Assembly: GCF_009735645.1 (NCBI RefSeq) | Contig: NZ_CP032550.1 | Span: 2,356,001 to 2,420,000, forward strand | Direction of reading: 5' to 3' | Source: Microbacterium oryzae | Lineage (GTDB): Bacteria; Actinomycetota; Actinomycetes; Actinomycetales; Microbacteriaceae | Length of the DNA stretch: 64,000 nucleotides | Shown here: one piece after another, positions 37,971-57,742 of the stretch | Numbering within the stretch: position 1 is the stretch's first letter | Layout: each line of letters starts with the position of its first letter | Made by a program: the position numbers and the translations under genes | The notes under the pieces: generated by a model | Seen by the model: only the letters and a program-made list of their open reading frames with translations | What the model was told of the DNA's origin: nothing | The model's database searches: none

Positions 37971-38865
37971 GAAATCTCTCTCCTCGAAGTGAAAAAATCA
38001 CGATTCCTCCGCTTGCCTGAAGCGAGAAATTGTACCGCAGGCGGTCCGCGGCCATCCTCATCGCGCTAACACCGAGTCCTTTATGGCTGTCCTTTGTCGA
38101 CGCGCCCGTCTGCGCGACATGCTCCATCTCGAACGCTTGACCCTCGAAGCGATTGGTGACGGTCACCCAGAAGTGTCGGTCACTGACGCCGTGCCGAACA
38201 AGGATCGGAGCTCCAGGCAATCCGCTTGAGGCTTCCTGCGCGTTCAGCAAGGCATTCCCCACGATGATCGAGAACAGCCCAGGATCCGTGTCGATCGAGT
38301 CGTCGTCGCCTCTGTCCGCGTCAACGACCTGATCGGGAAAGCCCTGCGGTTGACAATCGACGATGAGCGTAAGTAGCGACGCTCTTGAATATCGAGGCAG
38401 GCGATGCGCAGCGGCGAGCGTCTCCAAACCTAGTAGACGGCGTCTCAGGAGATCGATGTTCCTAAACGTCTCACTAGCTTCGTACTGATCACCGATCTCC
38501 CTCGCCGCACTGCGCCGGATCCACCCAATGATTGGTTCTGTCTCATGTCGGATGAGACCGCTTAAGGCGTCGAGAATCTCCGGGGAAGCGGGCGCCACAT
38601 CAGGCTCGTAGACGTAAGTCGGCTCGGAGATCTGTTGGGCTCGCCGCACGGCCGCCGCCAACAACCGCCGCACGGCAGGAACCGTCTCTTCCTCGATGGC
38701 AGTGGTCAGTATGCCGATGTCACCGATTGCCGCATTGCGCACGTACCAATCTGCGGCTGCCGCGCGCTCAGACGGCAACCGGCTTTGGAGTGCTTTGGTA
38801 GGCGGCTGACTAATGGGACTCAACCTCGTGCTCTGCGTAGAACTCAGCTCGCCGGAGGAATGCAT
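37963..38865 (-). CDS. GHKL histidine-kinase-like ATPase
   Basis: A 300-residue protein. The N-terminal half is helical, HEAT-like (ADWYVRNAAIGDIGILTTAIEEETVPAVRRLLAAAVRRA) with a possible dimerisation part (HETEPIIGWIRRSAAREIGD; the His in LIRHETEP could be the phosphorylated residue). The C-terminal half is a GHKL ATPase: N-box FSIIVGNALLNAQEAS and G2-box STKDSHKGLGVSAMRMAADRL. No transmembrane or known sensor domain is present, so it senses something cytoplasmic. It overlaps the SMC-like gene by 56 nt, with GGAGG before its ATG, and the REC-kinase gene by 8 nt; the three are one unit and this is the likely phosphodonor of the receiver. Confidence 0.72.
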   Translation of the reverse strand: MHSSGELSSTQSTRLSPISQPPTKALQSRLPSERAAAADWYVRNAAIGDIGILTTAIEEETVPAVRRLLAAAVRRAQQISEPTYVYEPDVAPASPEILDALSGLIRHETEPIIGWIRRSAAREIGDQYEASETFRNIDLLRRRLLGLETLAAAHRLPRYSRASLLTLIVDCQPQGFPDQVVDADRGDDDSIDTDPGLFSIIVGNALLNAQEASSGLPGAPILVRHGVSDRHFWVTVTNRFEGQAFEMEHVAQTGASTKDSHKGLGVSAMRMAADRLRYNFSLQASGGIVIFSLRGERFRA

Positions 38866-40699: not shown

Positions 40700-41020
40700 A
40701 TCAAGGGCGCCTCGCGATTGCTGAGCAGGCTCCATCAGCGACGACGAGGGCATCAAACGCATGACCGCACTGTACGCAGGCGCCGCCGTCGAACGCCAGC
40801 CCGACACCCTGCTCGATCGCGAGCTCGACGAGGACGTTCGCCGTCTGCAGGTCGACCATGCCGGCTTCGTCGACAACGATCCGATCGCGAGAAGGCAGCA
40901 CGTACCGAGTTGGTCCGTTGTGTACGGCGCCCGTGCTGGGATCGATTTCGCCCGCTCGAAGCCTGGTCCACTCCTTCGCGCCGCCCTTATGGGCGCCCAC
41001 TGGTCGCCATGGTCCGAAAG
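40700..41020 (-). pseudogene. Fragment of a MobF/TraA-type relaxase-helicase
   Basis: The minus strand reads RLRAGEIDPSTGAVH, YVLPSRDRIVVDEAGMVDLQTANVLVELAIEQGVGLAF, which is the Walker B part (VVDEAGM) of the RecD-like helicase domain in MobF-type conjugative relaxases. After that the matching sequence moves to another frame (APAYSAVMRLM, compare 'ALPVGHSGAM'), so it is both truncated and frameshifted. Only about 100 of over 1000 residues remain. It shows that a conjugative element once occupied this place. Confidence 0.6.
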
Positions 41021-41173
41021 CAGGGCGTGAATACTGGTTGCCGCGGCTGCCCTCGCGCTCGCGGGCCAACGCCGGGACTGGCCCGGTTCGTGCCCTTAAG
41101 TCTCGGGGCTCAGCCCCGTTCGGCGCAGTCAAGCCTTGAACTGGCTGGCAGTCGGTACCGTTACCGTTGTCGC

Positions 41174-41581
41174 ATGTCGTGGGCCAGCACCGAAGGTACC
41201 GCCCGCTCGATGAGGTCCAACCGCGGAAGGGACACCAGTCCGGAACTCGCGGTTCGAAAAATTCTCCACAGCATGGGCTACCGCTACCGTGTCGACTTCG
41301 CTCCACTCGGCGGGCGGCGGCGGGCGGACATCGTGTTCACGCGACAGCGGACCGCGATTTTCATCGACGGGTGTTTCTGGCACTCGTGTCCTATTCATGG
41401 GACGAAGCCTCGGCGGAACGCCGACTATTGGAGGCCCAAGCTACGCCGGAACGTCGAACGTGACCGCGAAACCGACAAGCTGCTCCGAGATGCTGGATGG
41501 GCGGTACTGCGCTTCTGGGAGCACGAGCCTCCCAAACTGGTCGCAGAAGCGATCATCGGGACGCTACGTCAAAACACGTAG
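41174..41581 (+). CDS. vsr: Very short patch repair endonuclease
   Basis: A 135-residue Vsr nuclease, which nicks at T:G mismatches arising from deaminated 5-methylcytosine. The family order is complete: RNRGRDTSPELAVRKILHSMGYRYRVDF near the start, RRADIVFTRQRTAIFIDGCFWHSCPIHG with catalytic Asp and zinc Cys/His, NADYWRPKLRRNVERD, and GWAVLRFWEHE at the end. Start 41174 has no Shine-Dalgarno. It converges with the Z1 gene (18 nt apart). Its natural partner is the cytosine-C5 methylase at 56260, at the other end of the locus. Confidence 0.92.
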   Translation: MSWASTEGTARSMRSNRGRDTSPELAVRKILHSMGYRYRVDFAPLGGRRRADIVFTRQRTAIFIDGCFWHSCPIHGTKPRRNADYWRPKLRRNVERDRETDKLLRDAGWAVLRFWEHEPPKLVAEAIIGTLRQNT

Positions 41582-41599: not shown

Positions 41600-44500
41600 T
41601 CAGTCGCGATCGACGATCGCGCTGTCCGCGCTATCCTCGCGACGGACTGTGAAGCCGATGCGCCCGCGTGGCGCCGAGCCATACGGCATCGCGATAGAGA
41701 GAAGCGTCGCGACACTCTCGCTCAGCATGAGCGTCGGCCATGCGTCCCTCTTGATGCGATTGGCGCTCGCGCGGCCCTCGTCTCGGAGTTCGTCGCTGCT
41801 GACCTCAGGGTCGTAGGCGAAGGTCAGAAGCAGCGCCCCGCGTGTCGCTCTGGACAGCGACTCTGCAACCGGGCCAGCCTCAGCATCCCGATCCGGACGC
41901 TGGGTGATCACCTCGAGGGCTGCACGATGCCGCCGCTCGCTTCCGGCGAATCCAGGGCGATCCTTCCGACGCCGGCGCTCAGCGATCGAAACGGTGGCGC
42001 CTTCGATCTCCCGCTGATAGGTCGAGTCCAGTTCGGGCACGATCACAGCCCAATCCTTCACTGTCCCTTCATGCGCCGCCTTCTGCATCATGCTGATGGT
42101 GGGCTTGAGCTGGTCGGGTGAGGAGAACCGGAACTCGCTAAGAGCCGCGACGACCGCTTCGGTTGAGGCAATGGCGTAGCGGCCATCGAATGTCGTGCCC
42201 GCCACCCCGAGGAACTTATGCGGCTCGGACAGCCCGCTCAACAGCGGCTTCACGGCAGCGAAGTGCTTCGCATTGCGACTTCCGTCTTCGCGGTGGTCGT
42301 GCTGGTTGAAATCCTTAACGACGCCGCCGTCACCCTCGTAGGTGAGTACCGCGTTGTACATCTTGTTCGCGCCCGTGGGCTTGAGCCAAGGCAGCTGCTG
42401 GAAGACAAGCGGCGGCACATGGATGGGCCGCACGACCGGTCGGCCATCCTCCTCGATCTCGGCGAATCGGTGTAGCTGGTCGCGGAACTCCTCCTCGTCC
42501 TCGATGATCGAGGTGAACGCGTCGTACAGGTCGTACGACTTTCCCCGCCCATCGAGGACGTTCCGCGCGATGTACAGGCGGACGAGGTCTCCGTAACCTG
42601 GACGGTAGCCGAACCACCGGCCCATCTGCATCAGCGTGTCTGCTGCGGCAGCACGGCGACGGTAGTAGGAGATCGTCAGGCCCTCGACGGTGAACCCGCG
42701 GCTGAGCTTCGCGCCACCGACCATGATTCGCCAGTACGGACGGGTCTGGAAGTCCATCGCGTCGTAGTCGCTGTCCTTCGTCCCGTTGACGACCACGACG
42801 GGATCGCTGTCAGCAGTGATGGCGTCGACTGCCGCGCCGACGAAGGGCTTGAGGTGGTCGAAACTCACTGGAAGCGGATGGTCGGGCCAGTCCCGCGCCT
42901 CATTGACCGCCCGGAAATCCGATTCGTACAGCTCGCGCAGTCGGGAGAACGCCGACGGGTTCGTGTACGCCGCACGCCTCCACACACCGCGGAATCGGTC
43001 GGCAAGGTCGGACTGGTCGGACGTGCGCACGGACTCGTGGACCAGCATCGTGTGGTGGCGGAATGCGGGTCCTGTGCCGAGCGACTCCCGCCACTTCTTG
43101 ATCGCCCCCGTCAGAACGAACGCGTCAAGAGCGCCGAGGATCTCGGCCTCTTCCGCGGCAGGGTCTTCGTCGCCGTCGGCATAGAGGTCGCGAACGAAGG
43201 CGGCTTCGTTCGATCGAGCCGGGTCCCCCCTGTCTGCTTCGTCAAGTCCCCACAGGTCATGGAAGTCGCGACCGCCCATGTACTGGGATGAGGGCTGAAG
43301 GCTGACGAGGAAGTCCTTCGGAAAGAGATCCTCCGAGTCGTCGGGCGAGATGAATACGTTGGCAAATGGCGTGGCGGTGTATCCGACGTACTGTGCGCGC
43401 GGCAGCTCGGTGAGCAGGTCGGCGATCAGCTTGTTGATGGCGGAACGCTTTCTGGACTCGGCCGCGACTTCCTGCTTCGAACGCGGGTTGACCGTGTTCA
43501 CCGATGCCTGGTCAGCCTCGTCGTCGATGATCAGCGCCGGGATCTCCTTGCCATCCGCCCGAATGTTCTTCAGGTCATGCAACAGATTCTTCAGCGAAGT
43601 CGTGTTCTTCTTCATGATGGCGATACGTGCATCGACGGAGTAGATGTTCTCGGGCGCGTACACCGGCTTCCCCGTGTCGCGGAGTTCGCCGGTGCGACGG
43701 AAATCGAGCGCGTCTCGCCCCAAGCGGAGTTTGCGATAGTCCCGGTCCACCGTCGTCAACCGCTTGATCGCCGGCACCTCCGGCAATGAGTGCACGTCCT
43801 GTCCGTGCTTGAGGAATTTGCCCGCGTACCAGTCGGCGTCCTGCGTTCCGATGTAGTCAATCTCGCGGATCGACGACGCATCGTTCCTGTCCGCTCCGTC
43901 GAGGATGTTCTCCTCGCCCACGAGCTCCATATCGAGCCGGCGCTGCGTCTGACCGCGCAACAGCTCGATGGTTCCTGTCAGCACGATGATTAAGCGGTAA
44001 CCGGCGTCGATCGCCTTCGCGACGATACCCGTGAAGTTGGCCGTCTTTCCGCTCTGGACGTGGCCAACGACAAGGCCTTTGGTCTGATATCCCTCGGCCG
44101 CGCTAGGGTCGGCGAGGCGCTGGACGATCTCCGTGGTGGAACGGTCGAGAGTTGCCAGCGCATCGACGTCCCATCCCTTCCCCTCGAGAACACCTCGGTA
44201 CGCGCGCCAGTAGAAGTCGTGGGCGGCGCGGCGCTCCTCGTCGTACCAAGGGGTCCAGTTCTTGGGGTCGACGATCATCGCATCCATCTGAGACGCGCTC
44301 GGGAACTCGGAATCGAGAACCTCGCGCAGACCGTCCGAGATTTCGAGCATCTCGTAGATCCGCTCTCGTCGATTCGGAGTGCCGGGCCTGGTGTCCTGGA
44401 TCCAGTCCGCAGAGGCGAGCGCATCCCACATCGCCAGCGCCATGTGGATTGCCCTGCGTGCGGGGTCGTTGAGATTGGGAACGGTGACAGCCGCCCTGAT

Positions 44501-44641
44501 GTCTGCTTCCGTGACGTTGACCTGTGTCTTGCGCAGCTCGCCCTGCACGCGCCACAGCAGCTCTTCGGGGCCGGTGTCGCGAATCTGGTTCAGAACCTTT
44601 TGAACGGCGGCGGTTATGGTCGGGTCGACAGTGGTCGTCAT
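41600..44641 (-). CDS. Z1-domain superfamily II-like ATPase/helicase
   Basis: A 1013-residue protein with the Z1 domain known from restriction-modification loci with MORC-like GHKL ATPases. Motifs: GHVQSGKTANFTGIVAKAI (Walker A, near 189), LIIVLTGTIELLRGQTQRR, LIIDDEADQASVN (DEAD-type Walker B, near 367), YVGYTATPFANVFI (motif III), and MVGGAKLSRGFTVEGLTISYY with MGRWFGYRPGYGDLVRLYI (motifs V-VI). It would remodel or translocate on DNA to license the nuclease partner. It overlaps the PD-(D/E)XK gene (ATGA) and is the last gene of the five-gene operon. Confidence 0.88.
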   Translation of the reverse strand: MTTTVDPTITAAVQKVLNQIRDTGPEELLWRVQGELRKTQVNVTEADIRAAVTVPNLNDPARRAIHMALAMWDALASADWIQDTRPGTPNRRERIYEMLEISDGLREVLDSEFPSASQMDAMIVDPKNWTPWYDEERRAAHDFYWRAYRGVLEGKGWDVDALATLDRSTTEIVQRLADPSAAEGYQTKGLVVGHVQSGKTANFTGIVAKAIDAGYRLIIVLTGTIELLRGQTQRRLDMELVGEENILDGADRNDASSIREIDYIGTQDADWYAGKFLKHGQDVHSLPEVPAIKRLTTVDRDYRKLRLGRDALDFRRTGELRDTGKPVYAPENIYSVDARIAIMKKNTTSLKNLLHDLKNIRADGKEIPALIIDDEADQASVNTVNPRSKQEVAAESRKRSAINKLIADLLTELPRAQYVGYTATPFANVFISPDDSEDLFPKDFLVSLQPSSQYMGGRDFHDLWGLDEADRGDPARSNEAAFVRDLYADGDEDPAAEEAEILGALDAFVLTGAIKKWRESLGTGPAFRHHTMLVHESVRTSDQSDLADRFRGVWRRAAYTNPSAFSRLRELYESDFRAVNEARDWPDHPLPVSFDHLKPFVGAAVDAITADSDPVVVVNGTKDSDYDAMDFQTRPYWRIMVGGAKLSRGFTVEGLTISYYRRRAAAADTLMQMGRWFGYRPGYGDLVRLYIARNVLDGRGKSYDLYDAFTSIIEDEEEFRDQLHRFAEIEEDGRPVVRPIHVPPLVFQQLPWLKPTGANKMYNAVLTYEGDGGVVKDFNQHDHREDGSRNAKHFAAVKPLLSGLSEPHKFLGVAGTTFDGRYAIASTEAVVAALSEFRFSSPDQLKPTISMMQKAAHEGTVKDWAVIVPELDSTYQREIEGATVSIAERRRRKDRPGFAGSERRHRAALEVITQRPDRDAEAGPVAESLSRATRGALLLTFAYDPEVSSDELRDEGRASANRIKRDAWPTLMLSESVATLLSIAMPYGSAPRGRIGFTVRREDSADSAIVDRD

Positions 44642-45621
44642 TCGGGTTCCTCGCAGAAGTCATCGAGTGGAGCGCCTATTCCAGAGTGGGCGAGATCGGT
44701 GACGTTGACACGGTAGGTCACGCTGGCGACATGCGGGCGCTGAGGAACGACCCGGTCCAAGCGCCCGGAGGTGATGGCAGGGAACTCCTCATCCACCAGA
44801 TACGCCCGGGGTGTGGAGCGCGGTTGGTGCCGCACCTTGTAGAGATCCGCATCCGCGTCTCGCCAGCCAAGCCCCTCTATCGCTGCATCGAACGTGCGGC
44901 GGGTCTGGTCCAGCCTGCTGCGCAGGTCGGCGATGACGGACGGCAGTGTGAAGCCCTGTTCGGCTAGACCCGCTCGAGTGAGTTGGATGGAGACCAGATA
45001 GAGAGGACGAGCCGGCTCCGGCTCGAGCTGCGTCTCCGAGCCGATGACGTGCACGCGGGACTCGGACTTCGTGGTTTTCACCTCGGCGTCGAACTGTTCG
45101 AACGCGAAGTCGTGCTCCTCGGCCAGTGGGCCCAGCCACGCAGTCATGGCCGCCTCCTCGCCGAGCGTGTCAACCGCGTGGGTCAGTACGAGAAGCTCCC
45201 CGAGTAGACCGAGGATCTTCTCCTCGGTGAGCCGTGATCGTCCGGCGAGCAAATCTTTGAGCGACGACACGGCTTCTGACACGGCATGCCGAAACGAAGC
45301 CCCCGACTTCAGCTGATCCACGATCGATTCCAGCAGTACGTAGGCCTCGTAATGCATCTCGCGGGCATCGACAACGAGGCGGAACCACTCCGTGCCGTCG
45401 CGCTGAACACGCAGCAGCGACAGCCTATCGAACGCGGTGACCTCCGGTTCCGACCCTGCCGCAGGGGTGCGGAGCTCGATCTCTTCACGGCCGGGGTCGA
45501 TCTCCATCACTACAGGCGGCTCGGCGTGCAGCGTGAAGGCCGACTTCGCACCCAGCCGGAAGTACTCCTCGACCGTTCTAGGGTCTAGGTGGCTCGGGTT
45601 GTCACCCGCGTTCGTCGTCAT
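44638..45621 (-). CDS. PD-(D/E)XK nuclease-like protein (DUF4420-like)
   Basis: A 327-residue predicted nuclease. The restriction-endonuclease core is visible as EEKILGLLGELLVL (Glu of the first helix, near 135) and HDFAFEQFDAEVKTTKSES (D...EVK, about 168-182), the usual active-site pattern of the family that accompanies Z1 and GHKL proteins. Its ATG has GGAG 7 nt upstream and overlaps the GHKL gene by 20 nt. It is the likely cutting enzyme of the operon. Confidence 0.82.
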   Translation of the reverse strand: MTTNAGDNPSHLDPRTVEEYFRLGAKSAFTLHAEPPVVMEIDPGREEIELRTPAAGSEPEVTAFDRLSLLRVQRDGTEWFRLVVDAREMHYEAYVLLESIVDQLKSGASFRHAVSEAVSSLKDLLAGRSRLTEEKILGLLGELLVLTHAVDTLGEEAAMTAWLGPLAEEHDFAFEQFDAEVKTTKSESRVHVIGSETQLEPEPARPLYLVSIQLTRAGLAEQGFTLPSVIADLRSRLDQTRRTFDAAIEGLGWRDADADLYKVRHQPRSTPRAYLVDEEFPAITSGRLDRVVPQRPHVASVTYRVNVTDLAHSGIGAPLDDFCEEPE

Positions 45622-47131
45622 TCCTCAGCTCCTTCTCCTGGCGCGCGGACTCTTCGCGCACGGCCGCGGTCAGCAGTTGGTCCCAGGCTTGCAGCTCAGC
45701 CTTCTCGCGCGAGCCCAGGTAGGAGCCCTCGAAGTACCGCGAGTACAGCATGACGAGCATCGTCTTGAGCAGCGGCGCGTCCTCGTTGTCGACACCATCG
45801 ACGCCCGTGATGAGTGCCCGGTAGGTGCTGTTGAGCCAGATCGTGCGATTCTCGAGATCGATGTGCACGGGCGACTCGGTCGCATCGATCCGCCACCGGA
45901 TGTCAATCGGATGGGCGTTGGCGCCCTCGACGGACTCATCGAATGCAGTTCGCATCGCCGCACTCATTCCACGACCGGGTCGTACGAGCTCGACAGGACG
46001 CTTCTCATACTTTCGACTCTCCCGCCGACGAGCCTCGGCCGCAGCGAGAAACGCGCGGAGAGATTCTCCACCAGGTGCCACTCGGGCGTCGAGCAGCGCA
46101 GCCTTGGCGTCGGCGTCGATCTCGAGGCCGGCCTTCTCGGGGTTGATCGTCACGTGCCGTTCGAGCGGCCCTTCGATGTCCACAGCGATGCGAACGTATT
46201 CAAGCTCTGCACGGTGAACGGTGAGGGTGTTCCACCCGCCCATCTGCAGCAGCCGGTCGTTGCGATAGAAGTAAAAGCCTTGTGCGAGCCCTCCGGGGCG
46301 GCCGCCGAGTCTGAACTCCGGTAAGCCGGCTTGCGCTGCTGGCCACACGTGCGCCTCGGCAACACCCGTAAGACCATCGACCGAGAAGGATAGCTCGGCC
46401 GGAAAACGGTCGTTGGGCAGCCGATGGTACCCGAATGGGTCCAGGGCGCTCACAGTGCGGGGGATGCCGGACTCTCCGTAGAACGCGTCAAACACGTCGA
46501 TGTTGATCGTGATCCGACCAGATGCGATATGCCGGTGGAACACCGTTCCGAGGTGCGTGCGTAGCGCCGTCACGCGTTGATCAAGCCACTGGGAGCGATC
46601 GCGCTGGTCGTGGCTGCTGAGGAACGTCCGTGGGCCTACCCACTCGACCACGGTGCCGTTCGACAACGGGAAGTCGACCCGAATCCCCTCAAGCACACCG
46701 GCGACGTGGTCGCGGTCCAAATCCCCGATGAGAGTCGGGTCGGCTGCGCCGATCGTGCGACCCGAAGCGAGCGTGCCGAACTTGCGCGAATACACGTTGA
46801 GCGTGTCGGCTTGACTCAATGAAGCGGCCTTAAGCCCCAACCCGAAGTGCCCCTGATCGCTCTGGCCGTACGCTCTCTTGAGGGCGTACTCCATAGCGGA
46901 ATCCATCTGGTCGCTGTCCATTCCGCAGCCATCGTCGATCACCTGCAGGCCGGTAACGGCTCCACTCGTCTCGAGAAATCGGACGAGTACCCGGGATGCT
47001 CCGGCGTCGAGGCTGTTGTCGACAAGGTCCGCGACTGCGGTCTCGAACGTGTGATGCCGACCGACGGCCTTCGCGATCGAGGGGTCCGGAGCCGTCTGCC
47101 GAAACCGGGTGACATGCGCCGCTTCGCCCAT
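45602..47131 (-). CDS. MORC/paraMORC-type GHKL ATPase
   Basis: A 509-residue ATPase of the gyrase/Hsp90/histidine-kinase/MutL class. N-box AVADLVDNSLDAGASRV (near 33-48), G1-box VIDDGCGMDSDQM (near 64) and G2-box [16 protein letters not shown] (near 91) are intact, followed by an S5-like region (GTVVEWVGPRTF, YFYRNDRLLQMGGWNTL). Prokaryotic proteins of this type act with helicases and nucleases in restriction systems as ATP-driven DNA clamps. The ATG at 47131 overlaps the DUF499 stop. It is a full-length paralogue of the first 500 residues of the GHKL-sigma fusion at 53506. Confidence 0.87.
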   Translation of the reverse strand: MGEAAHVTRFRQTAPDPSIAKAVGRHHTFETAVADLVDNSLDAGASRVLVRFLETSGAVTGLQVIDDGCGMDSDQMDSAMEYALKRAYGQSDQGHFGLGLKAASLSQADTLNVYSRKFGTLASGRTIGAADPTLIGDLDRDHVAGVLEGIRVDFPLSNGTVVEWVGPRTFLSSHDQRDRSQWLDQRVTALRTHLGTVFHRHIASGRITINIDVFDAFYGESGIPRTVSALDPFGYHRLPNDRFPAELSFSVDGLTGVAEAHVWPAAQAGLPEFRLGGRPGGLAQGFYFYRNDRLLQMGGWNTLTVHRAELEYVRIAVDIEGPLERHVTINPEKAGLEIDADAKAALLDARVAPGGESLRAFLAAAEARRRESRKYEKRPVELVRPGRGMSAAMRTAFDESVEGANAHPIDIRWRIDATESPVHIDLENRTIWLNSTYRALITGVDGVDNEDAPLLKTMLVMLYSRYFEGSYLGSREKAELQAWDQLLTAAVREESARQEKELRNDDERG

Positions 47132-50100
47132 CAAATGTCCTCGAACAGGTTCGGGTACAACCCGAGCTGGGTCCCGTTCTCCTTGACCGTACGCACGACC
47201 GAGTCCGGGAAGCCGTCCGCCTTACCGGCATCTATGTCGACTCGGATCTCGAGAGTGTCAGGCTCTGCTCGCCGCAGGTGTTCGAGCAGCTCTTCGGCCA
47301 GCTGAACGGCCTGTGCACGCAGGTCGATGCCTGGCTTGAGCTCGATCGAGCCGCGATAGCGGGCGTTCCTAACGACCGCCGGTGCCGGCGGGCGGGACAC
47401 TCCGCCCGAACCGCCCGAACTCCCGAATCCTGAATCCGACGCAGAATCCGAACCTCCACCCTTTGTGGGCGGCGCCGCGACGCGATCGGCCTCCTCGACC
47501 TCTCGTGCCCGCTGTGCCACCGCAAGTCGCGGGCTCACCAGCAGCATCGAGTCAGAGATCGCCGCCGGCGCCGAGTCCTCGATCGGTACTCTGAGTTTCA
47601 CGAAATCGCCGGTCGCCTCGTCATAGCCGTCGGCAAGGGCGAAACCGAGCTGTTCCCATGCCGGGTCGGTCATCGCTCCCGCGATCGCATCGAGCAGCAC
47701 GCGCTTGTCGCGCAGTCGCGCCAGGTAGGGGTACCGCACGTGATAGTCCCACAGCTCGTCGACGCGGATCGAACCCGAGTTCCACCTGCTTCGTAGACTG
47801 TTCTGCAGCTCGACTCCGATGGACTGCATCGAGAAGTGCGTGATCACCACGTCGGCCTTATCGAAGCGGTCGCCGACCGTGAGGATCACCGACTCGGTCG
47901 CACTGTCGGCCTTGATCTGCGAAGTCGTCCAGGACGCTCTTGCTTCGAGCTGCTGCGGATAGATGCCCCAGATCCACGTCTCGCGGATACGCTGCTCGAC
48001 CGTCTTGTTGAGGGCCGTGATCCGCTGCGATGCTGTCTCAACTTGGCCCTGGGTCAGATCCAGAATCTTGCGCTCGTGGTGGATGGCCTCCCACGCGAGA
48101 TACTGCCGCGCCGCCTGTTCAAGATCGGCCCAGCGCATTTGATCCGGCGCAAGAACGACGACAGTGTTGACGCCCTGACGCGGCGCGTTCCCTCTGGTCG
48201 AAGCGACGTGGTGCGCGAACCCGTGGGCCTTCGAGTCGTAGCTCTTACCGTCGTGGGTGTGAGCAGGACCTGCGATGACGAGGCGGACCTTGTCGGCTTC
48301 GACTACTTCGCTGGAGTCCGTGGGCGCATAGACGATATCGGCAAACATCGCGGGGTTTTTCGTCTGGCGCCGAAGGCGATCGACGATGAAGCGTTCGACG
48401 TCTGCGACCGAGTACGACTGCGATCGCTCGGCGACCGTGCGGTTGAGCGAGACCTGCAGATCGAACCAGTGCCGGTCCCCCTCGGCGTAGAGGTAGTTGG
48501 CGCGCTCACCCAGAAGCTGCAGTGCGCTGCCGAAGTTGCCGATCGTGTCGCCTGGCATGGCGACGCCGAGGAACATGCGCTTGCGTTCGATCCCCTTGTG
48601 ACTCGAGCGCAGCGTTGCGGCCGATCCGATGAAGGTCGCGCGAGCGATCCGGCGCGTCAGTGCGCGGTTACCGAAGAGCGGCTTCTCCCTATCGATATGG
48701 ATCGCGGTGCCGTTAGCGCCGTCGATGTCGCTCTCGACGACCGACTTCCACCGATCGCCATCATCGAGGTATCCAGTGAGCTCATCACGCACTGCGGCAG
48801 AGTCGAGCGGAATCGATCCGGGCATAATAAGCGGCGATCTGTCACCTGCCGAGTGCAGCGCGTGGACGACCGCGCTCATGAGCCGCAGCACGCCGCGCGT
48901 GCGTTGGAACTTCTCGAGTGTTGACCAATCGCCGTAGAGCCGGTCGAACAGCTCCGGATGGATCGGATACGCGTCGCGGATGCGCGACTCGTATGCCGGC
49001 TCGCGGGTCTCGGCCGGGAGTTCACCGACGCTTCTGCGGTAGTACTCGACGAAGGTCTTCGCAGTCGCATCGATCCGCCGACGCGCCTCGGCATCCGGCT
49101 CCCGGAATAGCCGCCGACGTACGATCTCGAAGGACTCCGTGCTGCTCGCAGGTGTCCAGGGCTGCGCGACGCGGGTGACCACATTCTGCAACTTCTCGAG
49201 TGCGGCCCGACCGTGGGCACCGCCCACCTCGAGGTCGGAGGCGACGGGAGCGTCATCGTCGCGGCGGACGTCAGATGCCGGGATTGACACTAGCAATAGA
49301 GCGCCCCGCACTGACTTCACGGCCTCAGTGAGTTGCTGCGCGAACGAGAACTGCGTCTCGAACGTGCCTCCGACGAGCGAATCCTGCCCGTAAAGCCCGC
49401 GGGCGTACGCGACCCACTCGTCGATCAGGATCACCGAGGGCGAGTGTGCTTCGATCACGTTCCGGATCGCAGCACCCGGGTTGGTGCCCGTGCGGTCGGC
49501 CTCGGCAACCTGAGCGTACGCTGCTGCACCGCCGAGCTGCCAAGCGATCTCGCCCCAGATTGTGCGGATCTCCGTGCCGTCGGGCTTCGTCCAGCTCTGC
49601 CCCGGCGAGAGCTCATTGCCCACGATCGCAACTCGCTTCACGTCGCCTTCGATCACGGCGGGGTCGGTACCGAGCTCGCGGATCACGTCCTGCGCGCTCT
49701 GCGGAAAGTCGGTGATCGTCCTACCACCGAACAGGTGCCACACTGCGAGCATCGAGTGGGTCTTGCCGCCGCCGAACGCGGTCTGCAGGTTGACGACGGG
49801 TGCGGCATTCATGTCGCCTGCGATGCGCTTGACCGCGATCCCCAGCAGCGCCTTGAGACCCTCGGTCAGATAGGTGCGCTGGAAGAACTCGATGGGGTCG
49901 TTGTAGTCGCTGGAGGCCTCGGCACCCGTCGCGACCTGATGAAGATCGGCAGCGAATTCCGCGCGGGCGAAATCGTTGGCGGCGATATCAGGATGCGGCT
50001 GCAGCACCTCCCGCCACGGCGCGAGGTCCGTCGATGACAGAGCCGGCATACCGGCTCCGACTTGAGTGTCGCGGCGCGTCTCGTCGGCGTAGGCCGATCG

Positions 50101-50520
50101 TTGGAGATCGAGACGCGAGCGACGGATGCTGTCTGCCGCAGCGGCGGCACCGATCGCTCTAAGGAGCCGCTCCATCGTGTCGAGCGCGCGGTAGGCGTCG
50201 TCGGCACTGAAGGGTTTCTTGTGCGCCCACGCGTCGCGCACGCCGCGGAGCTCGCTCGCAAGATTCTGCTCGGCGCGAGATAACTCACCGTTGAAGGCGT
50301 ACCGAAGCGATCCGAGTGGCTCTGTCAGCACCCGGAGCTGGACTTGAGGGTCTGTCGGCGAATAGTGCTTGCCCGCAATCCCGTCCTTCGTCTCAAGCAG
50401 CCGTGTCCAGTCGGTGACCCCCTCGGGCAGATGAGGGACGAGGACACGGGCGATGAACGGCTCGAGCGCCTCAGAGATGGTGTCCAGGCCACGGCCGACA
50501 CGCTCGATGTTCGAGACCAT
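47131..50520 (-). CDS. DUF499 AAA-type ATPase
   Basis: A 1129-residue protein of the DUF499 family, large P-loop ATPases coupled with DUF1156 methylases in defence islands. Walker A VVNLQTAFGGGKTHSMLAVWHLFGG (near 247-256 for GGGKT), Walker B SVILIDEWVAYARGL (near 360). The C-terminal region has a Ser/Gly linker (GGSDSASDSGFGSSGGSGG) and a small domain ending GLYPNLFEDI. The ATG at 50520 is preferred over the GTG at 50526 because GGAGG lies 9 nt before it. It overlaps the neighbouring genes on both sides or nearly so, showing translational coupling with the methylase. Confidence 0.87.
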   Translation of the reverse strand: MVSNIERVGRGLDTISEALEPFIARVLVPHLPEGVTDWTRLLETKDGIAGKHYSPTDPQVQLRVLTEPLGSLRYAFNGELSRAEQNLASELRGVRDAWAHKKPFSADDAYRALDTMERLLRAIGAAAAADSIRRSRLDLQRSAYADETRRDTQVGAGMPALSSTDLAPWREVLQPHPDIAANDFARAEFAADLHQVATGAEASSDYNDPIEFFQRTYLTEGLKALLGIAVKRIAGDMNAAPVVNLQTAFGGGKTHSMLAVWHLFGGRTITDFPQSAQDVIRELGTDPAVIEGDVKRVAIVGNELSPGQSWTKPDGTEIRTIWGEIAWQLGGAAAYAQVAEADRTGTNPGAAIRNVIEAHSPSVILIDEWVAYARGLYGQDSLVGGTFETQFSFAQQLTEAVKSVRGALLLVSIPASDVRRDDDAPVASDLEVGGAHGRAALEKLQNVVTRVAQPWTPASSTESFEIVRRRLFREPDAEARRRIDATAKTFVEYYRRSVGELPAETREPAYESRIRDAYPIHPELFDRLYGDWSTLEKFQRTRGVLRLMSAVVHALHSAGDRSPLIMPGSIPLDSAAVRDELTGYLDDGDRWKSVVESDIDGANGTAIHIDREKPLFGNRALTRRIARATFIGSAATLRSSHKGIERKRMFLGVAMPGDTIGNFGSALQLLGERANYLYAEGDRHWFDLQVSLNRTVAERSQSYSVADVERFIVDRLRRQTKNPAMFADIVYAPTDSSEVVEADKVRLVIAGPAHTHDGKSYDSKAHGFAHHVASTRGNAPRQGVNTVVVLAPDQMRWADLEQAARQYLAWEAIHHERKILDLTQGQVETASQRITALNKTVEQRIRETWIWGIYPQQLEARASWTTSQIKADSATESVILTVGDRFDKADVVITHFSMQSIGVELQNSLRSRWNSGSIRVDELWDYHVRYPYLARLRDKRVLLDAIAGAMTDPAWEQLGFALADGYDEATGDFVKLRVPIEDSAPAAISDSMLLVSPRLAVAQRAREVEEADRVAAPPTKGGGSDSASDSGFGSSGGSGGVSRPPAPAVVRNARYRGSIELKPGIDLRAQAVQLAEELLEHLRRAEPDTLEIRVDIDAGKADGFPDSVVRTVKENGTQLGLYPNLFEDI

Positions 50521-50522
50521 CG

Positions 50523-53345
50523 TCACGCCTCCAGGTTGTCAAAGTCGAGGGTCGGCGCCGCCAGGCCGACGGGGCGGTCGATCGCGGATACCGCGGCGGC
50601 TCGTACCTCGGGCCAGGACGAGCCGAGCGTGTTGAACAGGATGCCGGCCTGAGTGAGTCCACGCTTCTCTGAGATGGCGTACAGGAGGTAGGCGAGCTCG
50701 TGGGCTGCGGTCATATCGATGCCGCGCTGCTCCGCGCCCGCGAGAATGCGGCCCGCCGCGTCGAGACCCGAGTCGGAGAGCGCCCGCGCCATGTGCAGTA
50801 CGACCTCCCACAGCGAGATTCGATCGTCGGAGCGAGGGTCGTAGCCAGCCGGGAGCTCGTCCGGAGCGAAGAGCTTGACCTTGCCTCCACCGCTCGAGAT
50901 GACGCCCGACCGCGCGAGTCCCGCGACTGAAGCGTTCTTCGCGCTCGCGAGCGTCTCGGCCTCGCCGTACTGCGACACATCAAAGCCATGAGTCTCGAAC
51001 CATGCCACGCACCAGCGCGTGTCGTCGTCGAAATCGCCCTCCTGCTGCGAGAGCACCTCGTCGAGCACACCGTTGATCGCTCGGAGCGCGTCGCGAATGC
51101 TCATGGGTGCGCCCGATGGGTCGATCACTCGCGCGTACTTCGAGAAGGTTGCCATGCCTGGACCGATCGCGGCCTGCGCCATATCGACGGGTGCAATGCT
51201 TCCCTGTTGCAGGTTGCGTAGCGCCTCGGGGAGTGTGGACTTCAGCTCAGCGAGGAAGCCGCGGCGGTCGGCGACCGGCGCGTCCTCGGAGCGCGGGCGG
51301 AGCGCGAGCACGATAGATGATGCGAGAGCGTTCGTCCCAATGCTGATCATTCGGCCAGCGCGCTCGGACCGGACGGGCCACGTCGCGGTTACCATCCATC
51401 CCTCGGAGACCATACCGCTGAGCAGCGTCTCCCAACCTGTGGAGGCAAGCCCATCGGCCTCCAGCTCCGCCTGCTTGAAGGCGTAGTAGACGGTGATGGG
51501 GTAGTCGTCGCCCGCGGACCGCCGTGCCTCACCGAACACGTTGCGGAACCCTGACTCGAAGAATTCCTGCGCTGCGTCGCGGCCACCGTGTCGATACGGG
51601 TTGGCCACAAGTTCCTCAGCCTTGGGCACGAGCATGGTGCTGAGGAGCTGGGGGTGGATTGCCCGGAGTCCCCGCCGCAACCACACATAGAAGAAGTCGG
51701 ACAGGTCGGAGTATCCGATGTTGTCGTAGTAGGGCGGATCCGTCGACGCCGTGAGACTCTCGTAGGTCCTCGTCGACGCATCCGCCTGCATAGCGACAGC
51801 TGACCCGCGCGCGGGAACTCGGTCGAGCACGTCCGCGATCGAAGCCAAAGCTATGACCGGATCTCCCGATGCACGCGCTAGGGGTGAGGCCTCGACGAAG
51901 TCCCACGCCATCGGCACCGCCTGACGCGAGAAGAGGTTCCGTGTCTGGTCCCGCGAATTCGACCACGTTGCGAGGGAGTTGCAGATATCCGCCGTCCGAC
52001 TGACGCCGAGGCCCAGGTAGGTGGCGACGGCGTCGGCGTAGGCCGCGGCATCCGTCCCTCCCTCTTCGAGGCGGCTGCCCTCGGGAAGGCCGCTGGCGAG
52101 GGCATCCTGGAGGACCTGCTCCCGCGCCTCCCCGACGAGATCGCTGAACGTCGTGAGTGCCGTCAGCTGCCGGTTCGTGAATAGGGATGCGAATGTGGTG
52201 AGTCCGTACCGAACAACGTTGATACGCCCAGGCCAATCGAAAAGCTCGCCAGATGGGACGTCCGAGGCGATCGCGTCGGCAGCGGCGCGCGCGTGTTTCG
52301 CGTCTGCGGGCAAGTAGACGCGCGCCCGCGATCCCTCGGCCACGACGGACATCAACTGAGCGTCGAGTCCGACGTCGCGGCTCTGAGAACGGACGTACTC
52401 GAGTGGCACTGCGCTGCCGCAGCCGACACAGCGTGCACCTTGTCGCCCCACGGTTCCGTCCGAGTCCTTCGTTGGAGCCGACTTCGGGTTATGTCCGATT
52501 GTGAACTCCACGCGGTCGTTCACGACCGAAGGGACGACGTACGCCTCTTTACCTTTCTTCTTCCCCAGCCACCACGAGCGCACAAGCGGCATCTCGATTC
52601 CGCACGCCGGGTTGGGGCAAGTGACAGTTCGAGCCCAGATCCAGGCGATCACATTCGCCTTCGTGCCATCGGGCAGCGTCGCCTTCGGGTAGAGATGTCC
52701 GATGCGGCGTTCGGCCTCGTCACGCATCCATTCGCCGTAGCGGCGCACATCCTCGGCGAGACCCGTCGCCTTCGGCCACGAGTTGCGCGTGCCCTCGGCG
52801 CCTGGGAAAACCGGCGCGCGTCCCGCGAACTTCGGGGGGATCTCGATCAGCGCCTTATTGATGAGCACCGCAACTGGGTTGAGGTCGCTCGCATGCGCCT
52901 CGAGACCGAGACGCTGTGCTTCGAGAGGGATCGTCCCTCCGCCTGCGAACGGGTCGAGAATCGCCGGGGGGTTGCCGTCCGTGGACCGGCGGATTTCGGC
53001 GCGCACCTGGTCAAATAGGCTCTCGTCACCGATGTTGTCCCAGTCGACCATGCGCGTGATGAGATCGAAGAGACGCTGGCGCTCGGCATCCACCCGGGCA
53101 GCGACGTGGGCGTCGACGTCGCTCAGTCCAGCGTCCGCCGCCTCGCTCCGGAACTCGTCCGCACGCTCCGACGGATCGTCGACCAGCTGTGCGAACAGCA
53201 CCGCCCGTGCGGTGGCGAGGGGGCGACGCGCCCACCACAGGTGCAGCGTCGACGGGTGCCCGTGCCGAATCGACTTCTCACGCGCGGACTGCGCGTTGAT
53301 TGCTTCGAGCGGCAGCGCGACCTCGATCAACTTCTTCTTGGCCAC
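50523..53345 (-). CDS. DUF1156 adenine-type DNA methylase with zinc ribbon
   Basis: A 940-residue methylase. The DUF1156 start AKKKLIEVALPLEAINAQSAREKSIRHGHPSTLHLWWARRPLA is followed by SAM motif ILDPFAGGGTIPLEAQRLG (near 125), a zinc-ribbon region (CPNPACG ... CVGCG) and the catalytic motif DPPYYDN (near 533), typical of N6-adenine or N4-cytosine methylation. The GTG at 53345 was chosen because the family usually begins with this motif and GGGGAG precedes it; an ATG at 53381 is possible. It is the first gene of the operon and faces the GHKL-sigma gene across 160 bp. Methylation would mark self DNA. Confidence 0.88.
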   Translation of the reverse strand: MAKKKLIEVALPLEAINAQSAREKSIRHGHPSTLHLWWARRPLATARAVLFAQLVDDPSERADEFRSEAADAGLSDVDAHVAARVDAERQRLFDLITRMVDWDNIGDESLFDQVRAEIRRSTDGNPPAILDPFAGGGTIPLEAQRLGLEAHASDLNPVAVLINKALIEIPPKFAGRAPVFPGAEGTRNSWPKATGLAEDVRRYGEWMRDEAERRIGHLYPKATLPDGTKANVIAWIWARTVTCPNPACGIEMPLVRSWWLGKKKGKEAYVVPSVVNDRVEFTIGHNPKSAPTKDSDGTVGRQGARCVGCGSAVPLEYVRSQSRDVGLDAQLMSVVAEGSRARVYLPADAKHARAAADAIASDVPSGELFDWPGRINVVRYGLTTFASLFTNRQLTALTTFSDLVGEAREQVLQDALASGLPEGSRLEEGGTDAAAYADAVATYLGLGVSRTADICNSLATWSNSRDQTRNLFSRQAVPMAWDFVEASPLARASGDPVIALASIADVLDRVPARGSAVAMQADASTRTYESLTASTDPPYYDNIGYSDLSDFFYVWLRRGLRAIHPQLLSTMLVPKAEELVANPYRHGGRDAAQEFFESGFRNVFGEARRSAGDDYPITVYYAFKQAELEADGLASTGWETLLSGMVSEGWMVTATWPVRSERAGRMISIGTNALASSIVLALRPRSEDAPVADRRGFLAELKSTLPEALRNLQQGSIAPVDMAQAAIGPGMATFSKYARVIDPSGAPMSIRDALRAINGVLDEVLSQQEGDFDDDTRWCVAWFETHGFDVSQYGEAETLASAKNASVAGLARSGVISSGGGKVKLFAPDELPAGYDPRSDDRISLWEVVLHMARALSDSGLDAAGRILAGAEQRGIDMTAAHELAYLLYAISEKRGLTQAGILFNTLGSSWPEVRAAAVSAIDRPVGLAAPTLDFDNLEA

Positions 53346-53490
53346 AACACTCCCCGTGGTGCTTCCGACCCACCGCGGCATCGTCGTTCGACGCCCTCCG
53401 GCGAGGGTCGTCTCCTTTCTATCGCATGGAAGTGACAGACCTCGCGGTCGGCCTGCGCCGACTGCAGGTCCGGCGATGTCGGAGATTACG

Positions 53491-53496
53491 TTTAGG
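53491..53496 (+). promoter_or_regulatory. -10 box of probable leaderless promoter (GHKL-sigma gene)
   Basis: TAGGCT lies 9 nt before the ATG at 53506, with no Shine-Dalgarno between, so the transcript may begin at the start codon. The same geometry recurs before the next two plus-strand genes. No clear -35 box is seen. Confidence 0.45.
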
Positions 53497-53505
53497 CTCG
53501 CGGCC

Positions 53506-56115
53506 ATGACAGACCGCATCAATGCCGATGAGGCCGACCAGGGGGGAGGGACCGTCCTTCTGGCTCCGGACGCGTCGATCCTCGGCGCGATAGGGCGAGG
53601 GCACACTCTCGCCTCAGCGTTGGCCGATCTGGTCGACAACAGTATCGACGCTGGCGCCACCCGCGTCAGCATCCGCTTTGTCACTCACAACGCCGTCGTC
53701 CGCTCGATTCGCATCCGCGACGACGGTTGCGGCATGACCTTTGCGCAGCTCAAGCGTGCCATGACGCTCGGCGGCGGGAGCGATCACTCTGGCTCAGATC
53801 ACGGGCACTTCCGCGTCGGGCTGAAGGCAGCGTCGCTCAGTCAGGCTCGGATCCTGACCGTATTCTCGGCTACAGGGTTTTCACCTGCCGCGGGAATGCG
53901 GCTGGATCGAGCACAGTCAGGTCCACAGATCCGTGCGGAGGTGATTGACGCCGGCGCCGCGGCATTCGTGCTTCGAAAGCGCGGGCTCGACGGCGATTCC
54001 GGGACCGTCGTGGAGTGGTCGAGCCTGGAGGGCGTTTCGAAAGCCTCAACCTATCACGCACGACGGAACTGGTTCGAGGCAATGATCGTTCAGCTCCGCG
54101 ATGAGCTCGGTCTGACTTTCCATCGGTTGATCAAGGACGAACGGATCCGAATCGAGATGGACGAACTTGACGAGAGCAGCAATGAGTCCGGTTCCCCCCG
54201 CGTGGTGAAACCGATCGATCCGTTGGAGTTCGAGCGATGGGGGTTGACCGGTTATCCGAGAACTCTCGACGCCGAGTTGACGGGCGGTGGCCGCCTCACG
54301 ATGACGTGCTACATCCTCCCTCCGGCTGTGGATGGGCGGAACGTCAAGATGCTGGGCAAGCCTCGAGCCACTTGGCAGGGGCTCTACGTCTATCGGAACG
54401 ATCGCCTCCTGCACAGCGGCGGGTGGTTGCAGCTCCGTCCCGATGGGGGCGTCGACACACAGCTTGCCCGAGCGGTGATCGAGCTCGCGCCGGACGCACT
54501 TGATGCCGTGGCGATGAACGCTGAAAAACGCGGTGTCGTTCTCCGTCCGTCCGCGCTGCAGGCGCTTGAGCGGGCGCGAACCGACGGCTTCTCGCTGAAG
54601 GCCTACTTCGACGACGCCCGAGATGTTTGGCGGCAGGGGCAGCAGCGGGAGCTTCGTGCGCAGCCGTTTGCAGCTGTGGGCGAGGGCGCACCGAGCGGGC
54701 TCGAGTCCCTCGTGCAGAAGACGCTCGGCGTCCGCGATGACGCCGTCGCGATTTCGTTCGGCTGGCTCGACCTCGCTCCGGGACAGCTGTACTCATTCGA
54801 GCCTGCGACGGGGCTCGTGCGGCTGAACAGTCTCCACCGGGCGGAGCTTGAGTCGGACTGGGCCCGGCTAGAGCTCCTCAAGACGAGCATTTTTCTGCTG
54901 CTGGAGTCTCACGCTGGCAAGGAGCGTCTCGCGACCCACACACGGGAGCGTCTCGACGTGATGCACGCCGCGCTCGCATCGGTGGCGATTCGTGGTCATG
55001 CGGAAGACGTGAGTCAAGATTCGGGGAAAGGAAAACGTGAAGCCACGGCTCAGGAATCGGTCGACGAGGATCCTGATCGAGGCCGCGCTGGCGACGACGA
55101 CGAGGTTGAGTTCGTGCTGGTGGAGTCGATCCTTATCCCGGAACGAGATCCCTACGAGCCGCTCGCAGACCCCGCTCTCGCGGACGTTCACGTCGACGGC
55201 GACGTTCTGAGGGATCTCCTTCGACGGACCAAGGACTTTTCGTTGCTCTCGGCGCATGAAGAGGTCGAGCTCGCACGTGAGATCGAGATCGGTGTTTTCG
55301 CCGCGGAGCGAATCGCGTCGCTCGCGCACGAGGATCGAGTGAGAGGCAGGGGTCTTGACCTGCAGCGGCTGGCGCGGAACGGCGAGCGCGCCATCGACCG
55401 GATGGTGCTGTCCAACCTGCGCCTCGTTGTCCACATCGCGAAGGGCTATCAGAACCGGGGCCTCGAGCTCGCGGACCTGGTGCAGGAGGGAGTCACTGGG
55501 TTGCTGCGTGCGATCCAGAAGTTCGACAGATTTCACGGCACCAAGTTTTCGACATACTCCACGTGGTGGATCCGGCAAGCCATCACTCGTGCGCTTGCAG
55601 ACCAGGGGCGCACCATCCGGTTCCCCGTTCACATCGTCGAGAAGCTCCCTGACATCATCAAGGCATGGAAGGAGACTTCGGGCACTTCGACACGGCGGAT
55701 CAACGACGTGGCAGAGGCGCTGGCTGAAGCACCTGCGATGGTTCGCGCAGTCCTCAACAATGTCGATGCTCCCTACTCGCTCGACTGGCCAGCACTGCTC
55801 GAAGCAGCCGACGACGAAACCGAGTGGGTTTCGCTCGCTGATGAGCTGGTCGACGGCCATGACCTCACGCAGGAGGAGCACTTCGAAAGGGCGATGTTGC
55901 CTCTTCAGGTCAAGTCGCTTCTCGACGCACTCGGAGAGCGAGAAGCCCAAGTCATTCGATGGCGATTCGGAATCGGTGGGGACGAACCTCGCACCCTGGA
56001 TGCCGTCGGAGCATCGCTCGGTGTCACACGTGAGCGCGCTCGTCAGATCGAGGCGAAGACACTCGACGCGCTGCGCGGCTCCGAAGGCGCGAAGGCGCTG
56101 AGGGCATACCTGTGA
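53506..56115 (+). CDS. Fusion of MORC-type GHKL ATPase and sigma-70 factor
   Basis: An 869-residue fusion. Residues 1 to about 500 are a complete MORC-type GHKL ATPase: [19 protein letters not shown] (near 35-50), [63 protein letters not shown]. An acidic linker ([19 protein letters not shown]) leads to a full primary-like sigma factor from about 560: region 2 [34 protein letters not shown] and [31 protein letters not shown] (636-705), region 3, and region 4 [32 protein letters not shown] at the end. ATG 53506 fits the -10 box; an in-frame ATG at 53476 is possible. It diverges from the restriction operon and probably controls its transcription, or hijacks RNA polymerase on infection. Confidence 0.85.
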
Positions 56116-56245
56116 AGGCGCTGCCCGCACTGCCTTCGGTGTCGGAGGCCGGGGCGATCATAGAAGCTACGCTCACGTTCTTGATCTCGACCCTAGTCTT
56201 TGGCAGGATGTCGCGTCGCAGAGAGCCGAGAACGGCGTGGCCAGC

Positions 56246-56251
56246 TAGGAT
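56246..56251 (+). promoter_or_regulatory. -10 box of probable leaderless promoter (cytosine methylase gene)
   Basis: TAGGAT ends 8 nt before the GTG at 56260, with no ribosome-binding site between. This matches the spacing at 53491 and 57410. Confidence 0.45.
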
Positions 56252-56259
56252 TCTGTGAC

Positions 56260-57351
56260 GTGCCCCGCAACATCCGCGTCCTCGATCTTTTCGCCGGAGC
56301 GGGAGGGCTGACCGCGGGCTTCCGCGAAGGATCGAAGCGATTCACGAGTGTGGCGGCGGTTGAGATGGACATTGCGGCCGCTGCGTCATATGAGGCGACC
56401 TTCGGATCCGGGATCGTCTTCGCCGGACCGATCGAGGAATGGCTCGACACCCAACCCATGCCGGAGAACATCGATGTGGTCGTCGGGGGTCCGCCGTGCC
56501 AGGGCTTCTCGACTCTCGGCAAGCAGGATGAGGAGGATCTTCGCAACGGCCTCTGGCGTCACTACGCAGAGACGATCAAGCGGGTGAAGCCGAAGTACTT
56601 CGTCGTGGAGAACGTCGCCGCGTTCGAGAGATCGAAGCAGTTCCGGCAGTTCGTCGAAGCGACCGAACCGGGCGGGTTCCTGGAGGAGTACGCGTTTCAG
56701 CACCGTGTGCTGAACTCTGCGGACTTCGGCTCGCCGCAGGCTCGGAAGCGCGCTGTGCTGATCGGGCACCTTCGCGCGCTGCCCTTCCCGGGTTTTCCCG
56801 AGCCGACGCACGCATCGCAACCCTCGGCCCGCCGTGAAAGGTACCGGTGGGTACAGGATGCGTTCCTCGGCATTCCCGGGGATCCAGACCGCGATCACGT
56901 TCTCGGCACGAAGTCCATCGAGATTTCGGGTAGACGCCTTGCGGGTCCCTTCTCAACACGGGAGCTTCACTGGAGCCGGGATTACACCGATCTCTCGAGG
57001 AGGCGGATGGCAGCGATTCCGGAAGGCGGGAATCGATTCAACATCAAGGAAGCGGACCTCGCTCCTTGCTGGCGGAAGCATAAGTCCGGTTCCGCGGACG
57101 TGATGGGGCGTCTCTACCCCGATCGTCCATCGGTGACGATACGTACCGAATTCTTCAAGCCCGAGAAGGGTCGTTACCTGCATCCGACGAAAAACCGAGC
57201 CATCACGCATTATGAGGCTGCGGTCTTGCAGGGATTTCCCGTGAACCACCTCTTCGTGGGTTCGAGGACCGCGATCGCACGCCAGATCGGAAACGCCGTT
57301 CCCATCCCTCTGGGCGCAGCGATCGGGCGGCAGCTCGCGAGCGTTCTCTAG
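56260..57351 (+). CDS. DNA (cytosine-5) methyltransferase
   Basis: A 363-residue C5 methylase. Motif I VLDLFAGAGGLTAGF at the N-terminus binds SAM; motif IV GGPPCQGFSTLG holds the catalytic C80; motif VI YFVVENVAAF the ENV triad; motif VIII SPQARKRAVLIG; motifs IX-X GRLYPDRPSVTIRTEF and RQIGNAVPIPLGAAIGRQL. The GTG at 56260 starts just before motif I and fits a leaderless promoter; an upstream TTG at 56200 has no support. It lies 144 nt after the GHKL-sigma gene. With vsr and the Z1/GHKL/PD-(D/E)XK genes it completes the module expected in MORC-type restriction systems. Confidence 0.92.
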   Translation: MPRNIRVLDLFAGAGGLTAGFREGSKRFTSVAAVEMDIAAAASYEATFGSGIVFAGPIEEWLDTQPMPENIDVVVGGPPCQGFSTLGKQDEEDLRNGLWRHYAETIKRVKPKYFVVENVAAFERSKQFRQFVEATEPGGFLEEYAFQHRVLNSADFGSPQARKRAVLIGHLRALPFPGFPEPTHASQPSARRERYRWVQDAFLGIPGDPDRDHVLGTKSIEISGRRLAGPFSTRELHWSRDYTDLSRRRMAAIPEGGNRFNIKEADLAPCWRKHKSGSADVMGRLYPDRPSVTIRTEFFKPEKGRYLHPTKNRAITHYEAAVLQGFPVNHLFVGSRTAIARQIGNAVPIPLGAAIGRQLASVL

Positions 57352-57415: not shown

Positions 57416-57424
57416 GCTCACGTG

Positions 57425-57742
57425 ATGGGACGGGATGAGTTCAGGTTTTTTGTGGTCGAGGCACTCCGATCGCTCGGAGGGTCGGGCTCCGTGCTCGAGG
57501 TAACGAAGCGCGTGTGGCAAGTGCACGAACACGATCTCCGTACATCAGGTGACCTGTTCTATACCTGGCAGTACGACGTTCGCTGGGCGGCCCAGTATCT
57601 TCGAAACAACGGCTACATGAAAGCGGTTGATGGTGATCGGCGCGCGCCCTGGCAGCTAACCGAGCTGGGTCGAACTGCGGATCTCACCGAGATCGTCCTC
57701 AGCCCGAAGCTCAAGGCCAAGCACCGACACCCCGATCTCTGA
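57425..57742 (+). CDS. Small winged-helix-like protein (restriction-accessory candidate)
   Basis: A 105-residue protein with an apparent winged-helix fold: EFRFFVVEALRSLGGSGSVLEVTKRVW, WQYDVRWAAQYLRNNGYMKAV and APWQLTELGRTADL, the order of the N-terminal wHTH found in Mrr-like restriction proteins. It has no catalytic domain. The ATG at 57425 is favoured by spacing to the -10 box; a GTG at 57422 is possible. It is the last plus-strand gene of the island and may bind DNA for the methylase/restriction set or regulate it. Confidence 0.6.
   Translation: MGRDEFRFFVVEALRSLGGSGSVLEVTKRVWQVHEHDLRTSGDLFYTWQYDVRWAAQYLRNNGYMKAVDGDRRAPWQLTELGRTADLTEIVLSPKLKAKHRHPDL

Follow-up and report, generated by a model that had tools for sequence, protein, structure and literature searches.

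A GHKL ATPase-sigma factor fusion and a candidate promoter element before the divergent restriction operon of Microbacterium oryzae

In a 64,000-nucleotide (nt) stretch of Microbacterium oryzae DNA (contig NZ_CP032550.1, positions 2,356,001 to 2,420,000; hereafter the window), a single gene joins a GHKL ATPase to a primary-type sigma factor. As a sequence-only reading of the window had stated, this gene is divergent from a restriction operon; the operon starts at GTG 53345 on the minus strand, and the intergenic region is therefore 53346-53505. New here is a 13-base element, TGNGATAGAAAGG, which precedes the operon and travels with the fusion. The fusion gene, its parts and the two promoter features were located as follows.

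53506..56115, plus strand: GHKL-sigma fusion gene, 869 amino acids (aa), from frame, Pfam and homologue listing
53563..54651, plus strand: GHKL and S5 ATPase module, residues 20-382, from HATPase_c_3, S5 signature and SMCHD1/MORC fold matches
54997..55191, plus strand: linker, residues 498-562, predicted local distance difference test (pLDDT) score mostly <50 (498-536, 545-562)
55198..56112, plus strand: sigma module, residues 565-869, with regions 1.2, 2, diverged 3, and 4, from Pfam, alignment and fold match
53493..53498, plus strand: TAGGCT, 7 nt before the ATG, −10 of leaderless type for the fusion gene
53414..53426, minus strand: TGCGATAGAAAGG, 68 nt before the GTG, putative promoter element dedicated to the divergent operon

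The fusion frame is uninterrupted over its whole length. The motifs quoted in the sequence-only reading are present, and GHKL and sigma parts both gave Pfam matches above cut-off in this one frame: HATPase_c_3 (residues 34-122, 68.8 bits), HATPase_c (34-107, 28.2 bits), Sigma70_r1_2 (566-599, 25.1 bits), Sigma70_r2 (633-703, 69.8 bits) and Sigma70_r4 (805-857, 52.6 bits). To sigma regions 2 to 4 of the earlier assignment, region 1.2 is added. Region 3 is diverged and gave no Sigma70_r3 match above cut-off in the window protein (P0001); such a match is present in P0054 and in the fusion of genome G704. Region 1.1 was not detected in the sigma module. The AlphaFold2 model showed two folded modules separated by a low-confidence linker at about 498-562. 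The mechanical open reading frame (ORF) reaches upstream to 52783; ATG 53506 is the likely start, because the 15 closest listed homologues are 865-879 aa long and this codon is preceded, at 7 nt, by a TANNNT hexamer.

A homologue search with residues 1-560 of the fusion scored 7,998 candidates and returned 524 relatives, 120 of which were listed. Of these 120, 72 (query included) carry a sigma part and 48 lack it. This recurrence, together with full-length fusions in nine genomes (two of them, G050 and G228, closely related to each other), in practice ruled out a misassembly or frameshift across 54,950-55,200. The names of the listed relatives were those of Microbacteriaceae (Microbacterium, Curtobacterium, Cryobacterium, Salinibacterium, Planctomonas) or wider, and listed fusions bearing a name were named as sigma factors. 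With the own genome counted, the full fusion was found in 5 of 366 genomes of the genus, in 5 of 398 genomes of a family draw (sigma checked) and in 1 of 394 genomes of a class draw, the last count including a frame-length criterion. Such a patchy spread fits a horizontally moving defence island. In G182 a tyrosine integrase lies just past the methylase (L070:18170-19300), which suggests that the island is mobile.

The fold of the ATPase module matched SMCHD1/MORC, placing it in the MORC fold, and the MORC S5 signature (pattern GhXhhpXXRhl) was found at its residues 292-302 (11 residues), as well as in 116 of the 120 listed proteins, including 69 of the 72 fusions. The glutamate of the E-xxx-N motif is the general base in MutL and GHKL ATPases; at this position, for which an alignment with MutL was also made, aspartate replaced glutamate in 115 of the 117 sequences matched among the 120 listed. 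The MORC/paraMORC restriction-modification operons (Iyer et al. 2008, PMC2292703) likewise contain a GHKL and S5 ATPase with the MORC signature, a helicase-type partner, a restriction-fold nuclease, a C5 methylase and Vsr; in contrast to the window locus, the portion of that article covered describes no sigma fusion and does not contain the word sigma. Literature searches, which covered parts of PMC2292703, PMC9523054, PMC12839542, PMC12479173, PMC12137116, PMC13092281 and PMC8011034 among others, found no GHKL-sigma fusion in print.

Conservation in the sigma module was counted over 71 fusion sequences, with Escherichia coli residue numbers and roles mapped through two motifs. D403, T429, Y430, W433, W434, Q437, R441, R451 and P453 were invariant in all 71, as were R584, E585, R586, R588 and Q589. 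Q406, E407 and H455 were kept in 70, E458 and R448 in 64, K593 in 55, T440 in 53 and N409 in only 36. Residue 425 was aromatic in 36/36 RpoD (two RpoD-like paralogues excluded) and non-aromatic in 54/71 fusions, and regions 3.0-3.2 had diverged to 18-33% identity with RpoD. Judged from sequence, the fusions would thus still bind core, open the strands and read bases, whereas the part leading to the active site has diverged. Divergence of regions 3.0-3.2 and the apparently repeated loss of sigma (below) would suit a decaying passenger without function; conservation of the functional residues in 71 sequences and a single origin on the sigma tree speak against this, and the conservation in particular makes it barely credible. 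Alternatively, the sigma part could be a built-in decoy: by imitating the primary sigma of the host, it would bait phage proteins that seize sigma or RNA polymerase (RNAP), and their binding would trigger the ATPase. Some fusions (P0054), which are very near RpoD in regions 1.2-2.4, and the placement of the fusions beside RpoD-type sigmas fit such a bait, but the strict keeping of base-reading residues seems beyond its need and the window sigma has drifted to 40-45% identity with RpoD of the genus, so that we consider a decoy very unlikely.

In a tree of the 71 fusion sigmas (P0017 was dropped as truncated) and 38 Microbacteriaceae RpoD-type sigmas, the fusions formed one side of a single branch (support 99/98) adjoining the RpoD-type sigmas, and most of their branches were many times longer than those of RpoD. 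This topology is compatible with a single capture of sigma. A quick GHKL tree, built without bootstrap and without P0044 (too short), placed 70 of 71 sigma-bearing sequences in one clade together with three sigma-less ones and needed five label changes. P0096 fell outside this clade on a long branch, a position that could reflect a second origin of the fusion. Inside the clade the ATPase persists without sigma in P0067, in P0073 and in P0064, whose contig is short, and the neighbouring group is a sigma-less class whose members mostly bear a C-terminal tail. This tail is common to long fusions and sigma-less GHKL proteins (P0054, P0097 and L073:13319-15379) and occurs also in P0042, P0050, P0067, P0089 and P0096, partly as recognised by eye; P0054, P0097 and the L073 protein gave weak HTH_38/HTH_23 matches in it, and precomputed HTH_38 matches exist for P0089, P0091 and P0097. 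The fusion probably arose when a GHKL-tail protein gained a primary-type sigma; repeated loss of this sigma probably followed, and the clade to which the window protein belongs probably lost the tail. Because the system persists where sigma is absent, sigma is a control or targeting layer on the restriction core, not the core itself. The fusion sigma resembles RpoD/SigA/HrdB in regions 1.2, 2 and 4 and in the overall fold of mycobacterial SigA, but differs in its undetected region 1.1, diverged regions 3.0-3.2, attached ATPase and fast evolution.

The fusion gene starts with a promoter signal of its own, of the ordinary leaderless type. TANNNT was found 6-7 nt before the chosen ATG in 9/9 fusion loci and had the form TACGAT in five of them; for G182, G050, G228 and G704 the ATG chosen was an internal one, similarly spaced from the N-box. 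The hexamer also lay 6-8 nt before the ATG in the 3/3 sigma-less GHKL-tail loci looked at, a count given with no shuffled control. The housekeeping sigma probably transcribes the fusion gene as a leaderless mRNA.

On the operon side, all nine fusion loci share T-R-N-G-M-T-A-G-A-A-A on the operon strand before the operon, and little else is conserved in the 62 upstream bases compared. The 40 genomes searched for exact TGNGATAGAAAGG comprised nine that carry the fusion, nine that carry a GHKL relative lacking sigma, and 22 Microbacterium with neither. The exact element occurred six times, once each in G000, G033, G182, G730, G704 and G456 and always before the operon, and in 0/31 genomes without the fusion; G550 has a one-mismatch copy at the expected position. 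The distance from the element to the DUF1156 start was 68 nt in the own genome, 67 in G182, 68 in G704, 67 in G050, 66 in G228, 66 in G033 and 64 in G730, so that a spacing of 64-68 nt holds in seven loci, two of which keep only a DUF1156 remnant; to the homologous DUF4420 start it was 109 nt in G456 and 172 nt in G550 (distances for G033, G730, G456 and G550 were read from printed frames). The loose 7-mer TTTCTA[TG] was found in one of nine sigma-less loci (L073, L078-L085), namely that of G556, and TAGAAA was absent from the operon fronts of sigma-less G497 (outside L079) and G766. Among the components scored, the sigma module alone separated loci with and without the element, G556 excepted. 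TGCGAT can be read as TACGAT in which G has replaced A at the critical second position; RpoD would then use the operon promoter poorly.

A short inverted repeat (e.g. CCCTGGCCGGAGGG) was noticed by eye after the element at window 53394-53407 and in L069, L070, L076 and L077. These are the five loci whose operon opens with an intact DUF1156, and changes occur on both arms; the repeat may serve as an operator or form a hairpin in the leader.

We propose that the fusion is a constitutive, ATPase-gated sigma factor driving its own restriction operon, a reading to which we give an even chance. The fusion would be made constitutively, as sensor and activator in one; its ATPase module would restrain or license the sigma part, and activation would start the 11.7-kb operon. 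Region 1.1 masks DNA binding in primary sigma factors, and in the fusion the ATPase occupies the place of the undetected region 1.1. The defence system may in this way switch on its own genes, and the role that the sequence-only reading had given the fusion, starting the operon when foreign DNA is met or pulling RNAP from normal promoters, is supported in part.

Several observations weigh against this proposal. The element was first spotted by eye in the promoter-scan output of the same loci and then tested, so that its discovery was not blind, and the nine loci share ancestry, with the result that it could follow the fusion by descent. With up to one mismatch, the 40 genomes gave 58 matches to the element versus 63 to a reversed control, and loose copies are therefore background. 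G050 and G228 keep sigma yet have the variant TAGGCTAGAAA, and the identity of residue 425 does not follow the element's second base, locus by locus. The divergent arrangement is also retained in sigma-less G288 and G628, so the operon there must be expressed without a fused sigma. Scanned along the operon strand for consensus sigma-70 promoters, all nine fusion loci scored no higher than shuffled sequence (in G456 the scan covered the stretch by the fusion gene, not the operon front), and the element lacks a conserved −35 hexamer upstream. In sigma-less G556 (L084) a partial copy, TAAGCTAGAAA, lies 64 nt before DUF1156; with its canonical TANNNT form it may represent the ancestral promoter of the operon.

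The lack of a consensus promoter or conserved −35, the partial copy in G556 at a similar distance and the inverted repeat would also agree with an element that is an operator or leader feature of another factor, or a weak inherited operon promoter, the fused sigma acting elsewhere. This account is doubtful, given that, G556 apart, sigma alone among the components scored separates loci with and without the element, that the spacing from DUF1156 is held even with a remnant only, and that the remaining upstream region is hardly conserved.

Since the −35-reading residues are invariant and the element has no conserved −35, the fused sigma, to judge by these residues, probably also reads other promoters. 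The same observation leaves room for a second role at such promoters, for which reason we keep as unlikely, though deserving attention, the alternative that the fused sigma serves targeting instead of operon regulation. Housekeeping-type −10 and −35 readers are kept beyond the need of a single dedicated site that lacks a −35; sigma and the GHKL ATPase share one polypeptide, and in G050, G228 and G550 our searches found no GHKL protein other than this ATPase; and the ATPase persists without sigma inside the sigma clade. Targeting leaves unexplained why an element before the operon follows the fusion.

The operon and the other genes of the locus are listed below.

50523..53345, minus strand: DUF1156 adenine-methylase-like gene (PADLOC HmaB, 1089 bits)
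47131..50526, minus strand: DUF499 ATPase with N-terminal Swt1-like HEPN domain (PADLOC HmaC, 827 bits)
45602..47134, minus strand: GHKL2, second GHKL ATPase, without sigma, with MORC S5 signature
44638..45621, minus strand: DUF4420 PD-(D/E)XK protein, MzaD-like
41600..44641, minus strand: further locus feature
40718..41581, plus strand: Vsr-type endonuclease ORF (extent is that of the ORF)
56200..57351, plus strand: C5-cytosine DNA methylase ORF (extent is that of the ORF), directly downstream of the fusion
57422..57742, plus strand: small protein, weak Mrr_N match below cut-off

GHKL2 refines the sequence-only reading, being a separate GHKL gene inside the divergent operon. The Swt1-like HEPN domain of the DUF499 ATPase scored 98.7 bits and is a possible RNase effector within the operon. 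In L071 and L072 an N-terminal DUF1156 remnant lies behind the element and DUF1156-DUF499-GHKL2 has been lost; at L074:6321-7964 a GHKL ATPase with a C-terminal Hypoth_Ymh domain is inserted between the fusion and DUF4420. A separate cluster at window 35476-40645, possibly another conflict system, comprises an SMC-like AAA ATPase, a small GHKL protein (HATPase_c_5) and a receiver-like and APH/TCAD9-like protein; the 253-aa ORF at 35476 had no domain match.

The nearest named comparison is MZA, the mzaABCDE anti-phage system reportedly described by Gao et al. in 2020 (models NCBIfam NF041931/NF041932 and PADLOC MzaA-D). Unlike MZA, the window locus has sigma and GHKL in one chain and contains a C5 methylase and Vsr. 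Against MzaA the fusion scored 255 bits (cut-off 800), covering only model positions 467-714 of 726 and being fused to GHKL, and the RpoD of the same genome scored higher, at 343 bits; MzaA orthology of the fusion sigma is therefore not established. The fusion (107 bits) and GHKL2 (92 bits) fell far below the MzaB cut-off of 850. The DUF4420 protein is MzaD-like by Pfam (122 bits), with a weak PADLOC MzaD score (35 bits), and AIPR (MzaE) had no match among the nine locus proteins scanned with Pfam. The known system in section 11 of PMC9523054 has the same three core genes, with repair endonucleases associated in its type I, but in the part covered mzaA occurs in only a few type II systems and neither a GHKL-sigma fusion nor a promoter element is mentioned. 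No role for the MZA sigma gene is stated in the literature covered, which did not extend to the MZA source paper.

The question addressed by this locus is how large multi-gene restriction systems switch on, and why some of them carry a sigma factor. The fusion ties one particular ATPase to one particular sigma, and the element points to a concrete promoter candidate. If it is true that the ATPase gates sigma, then a DNA-sensing clamp, and not an anti-sigma factor, would control this sigma factor.
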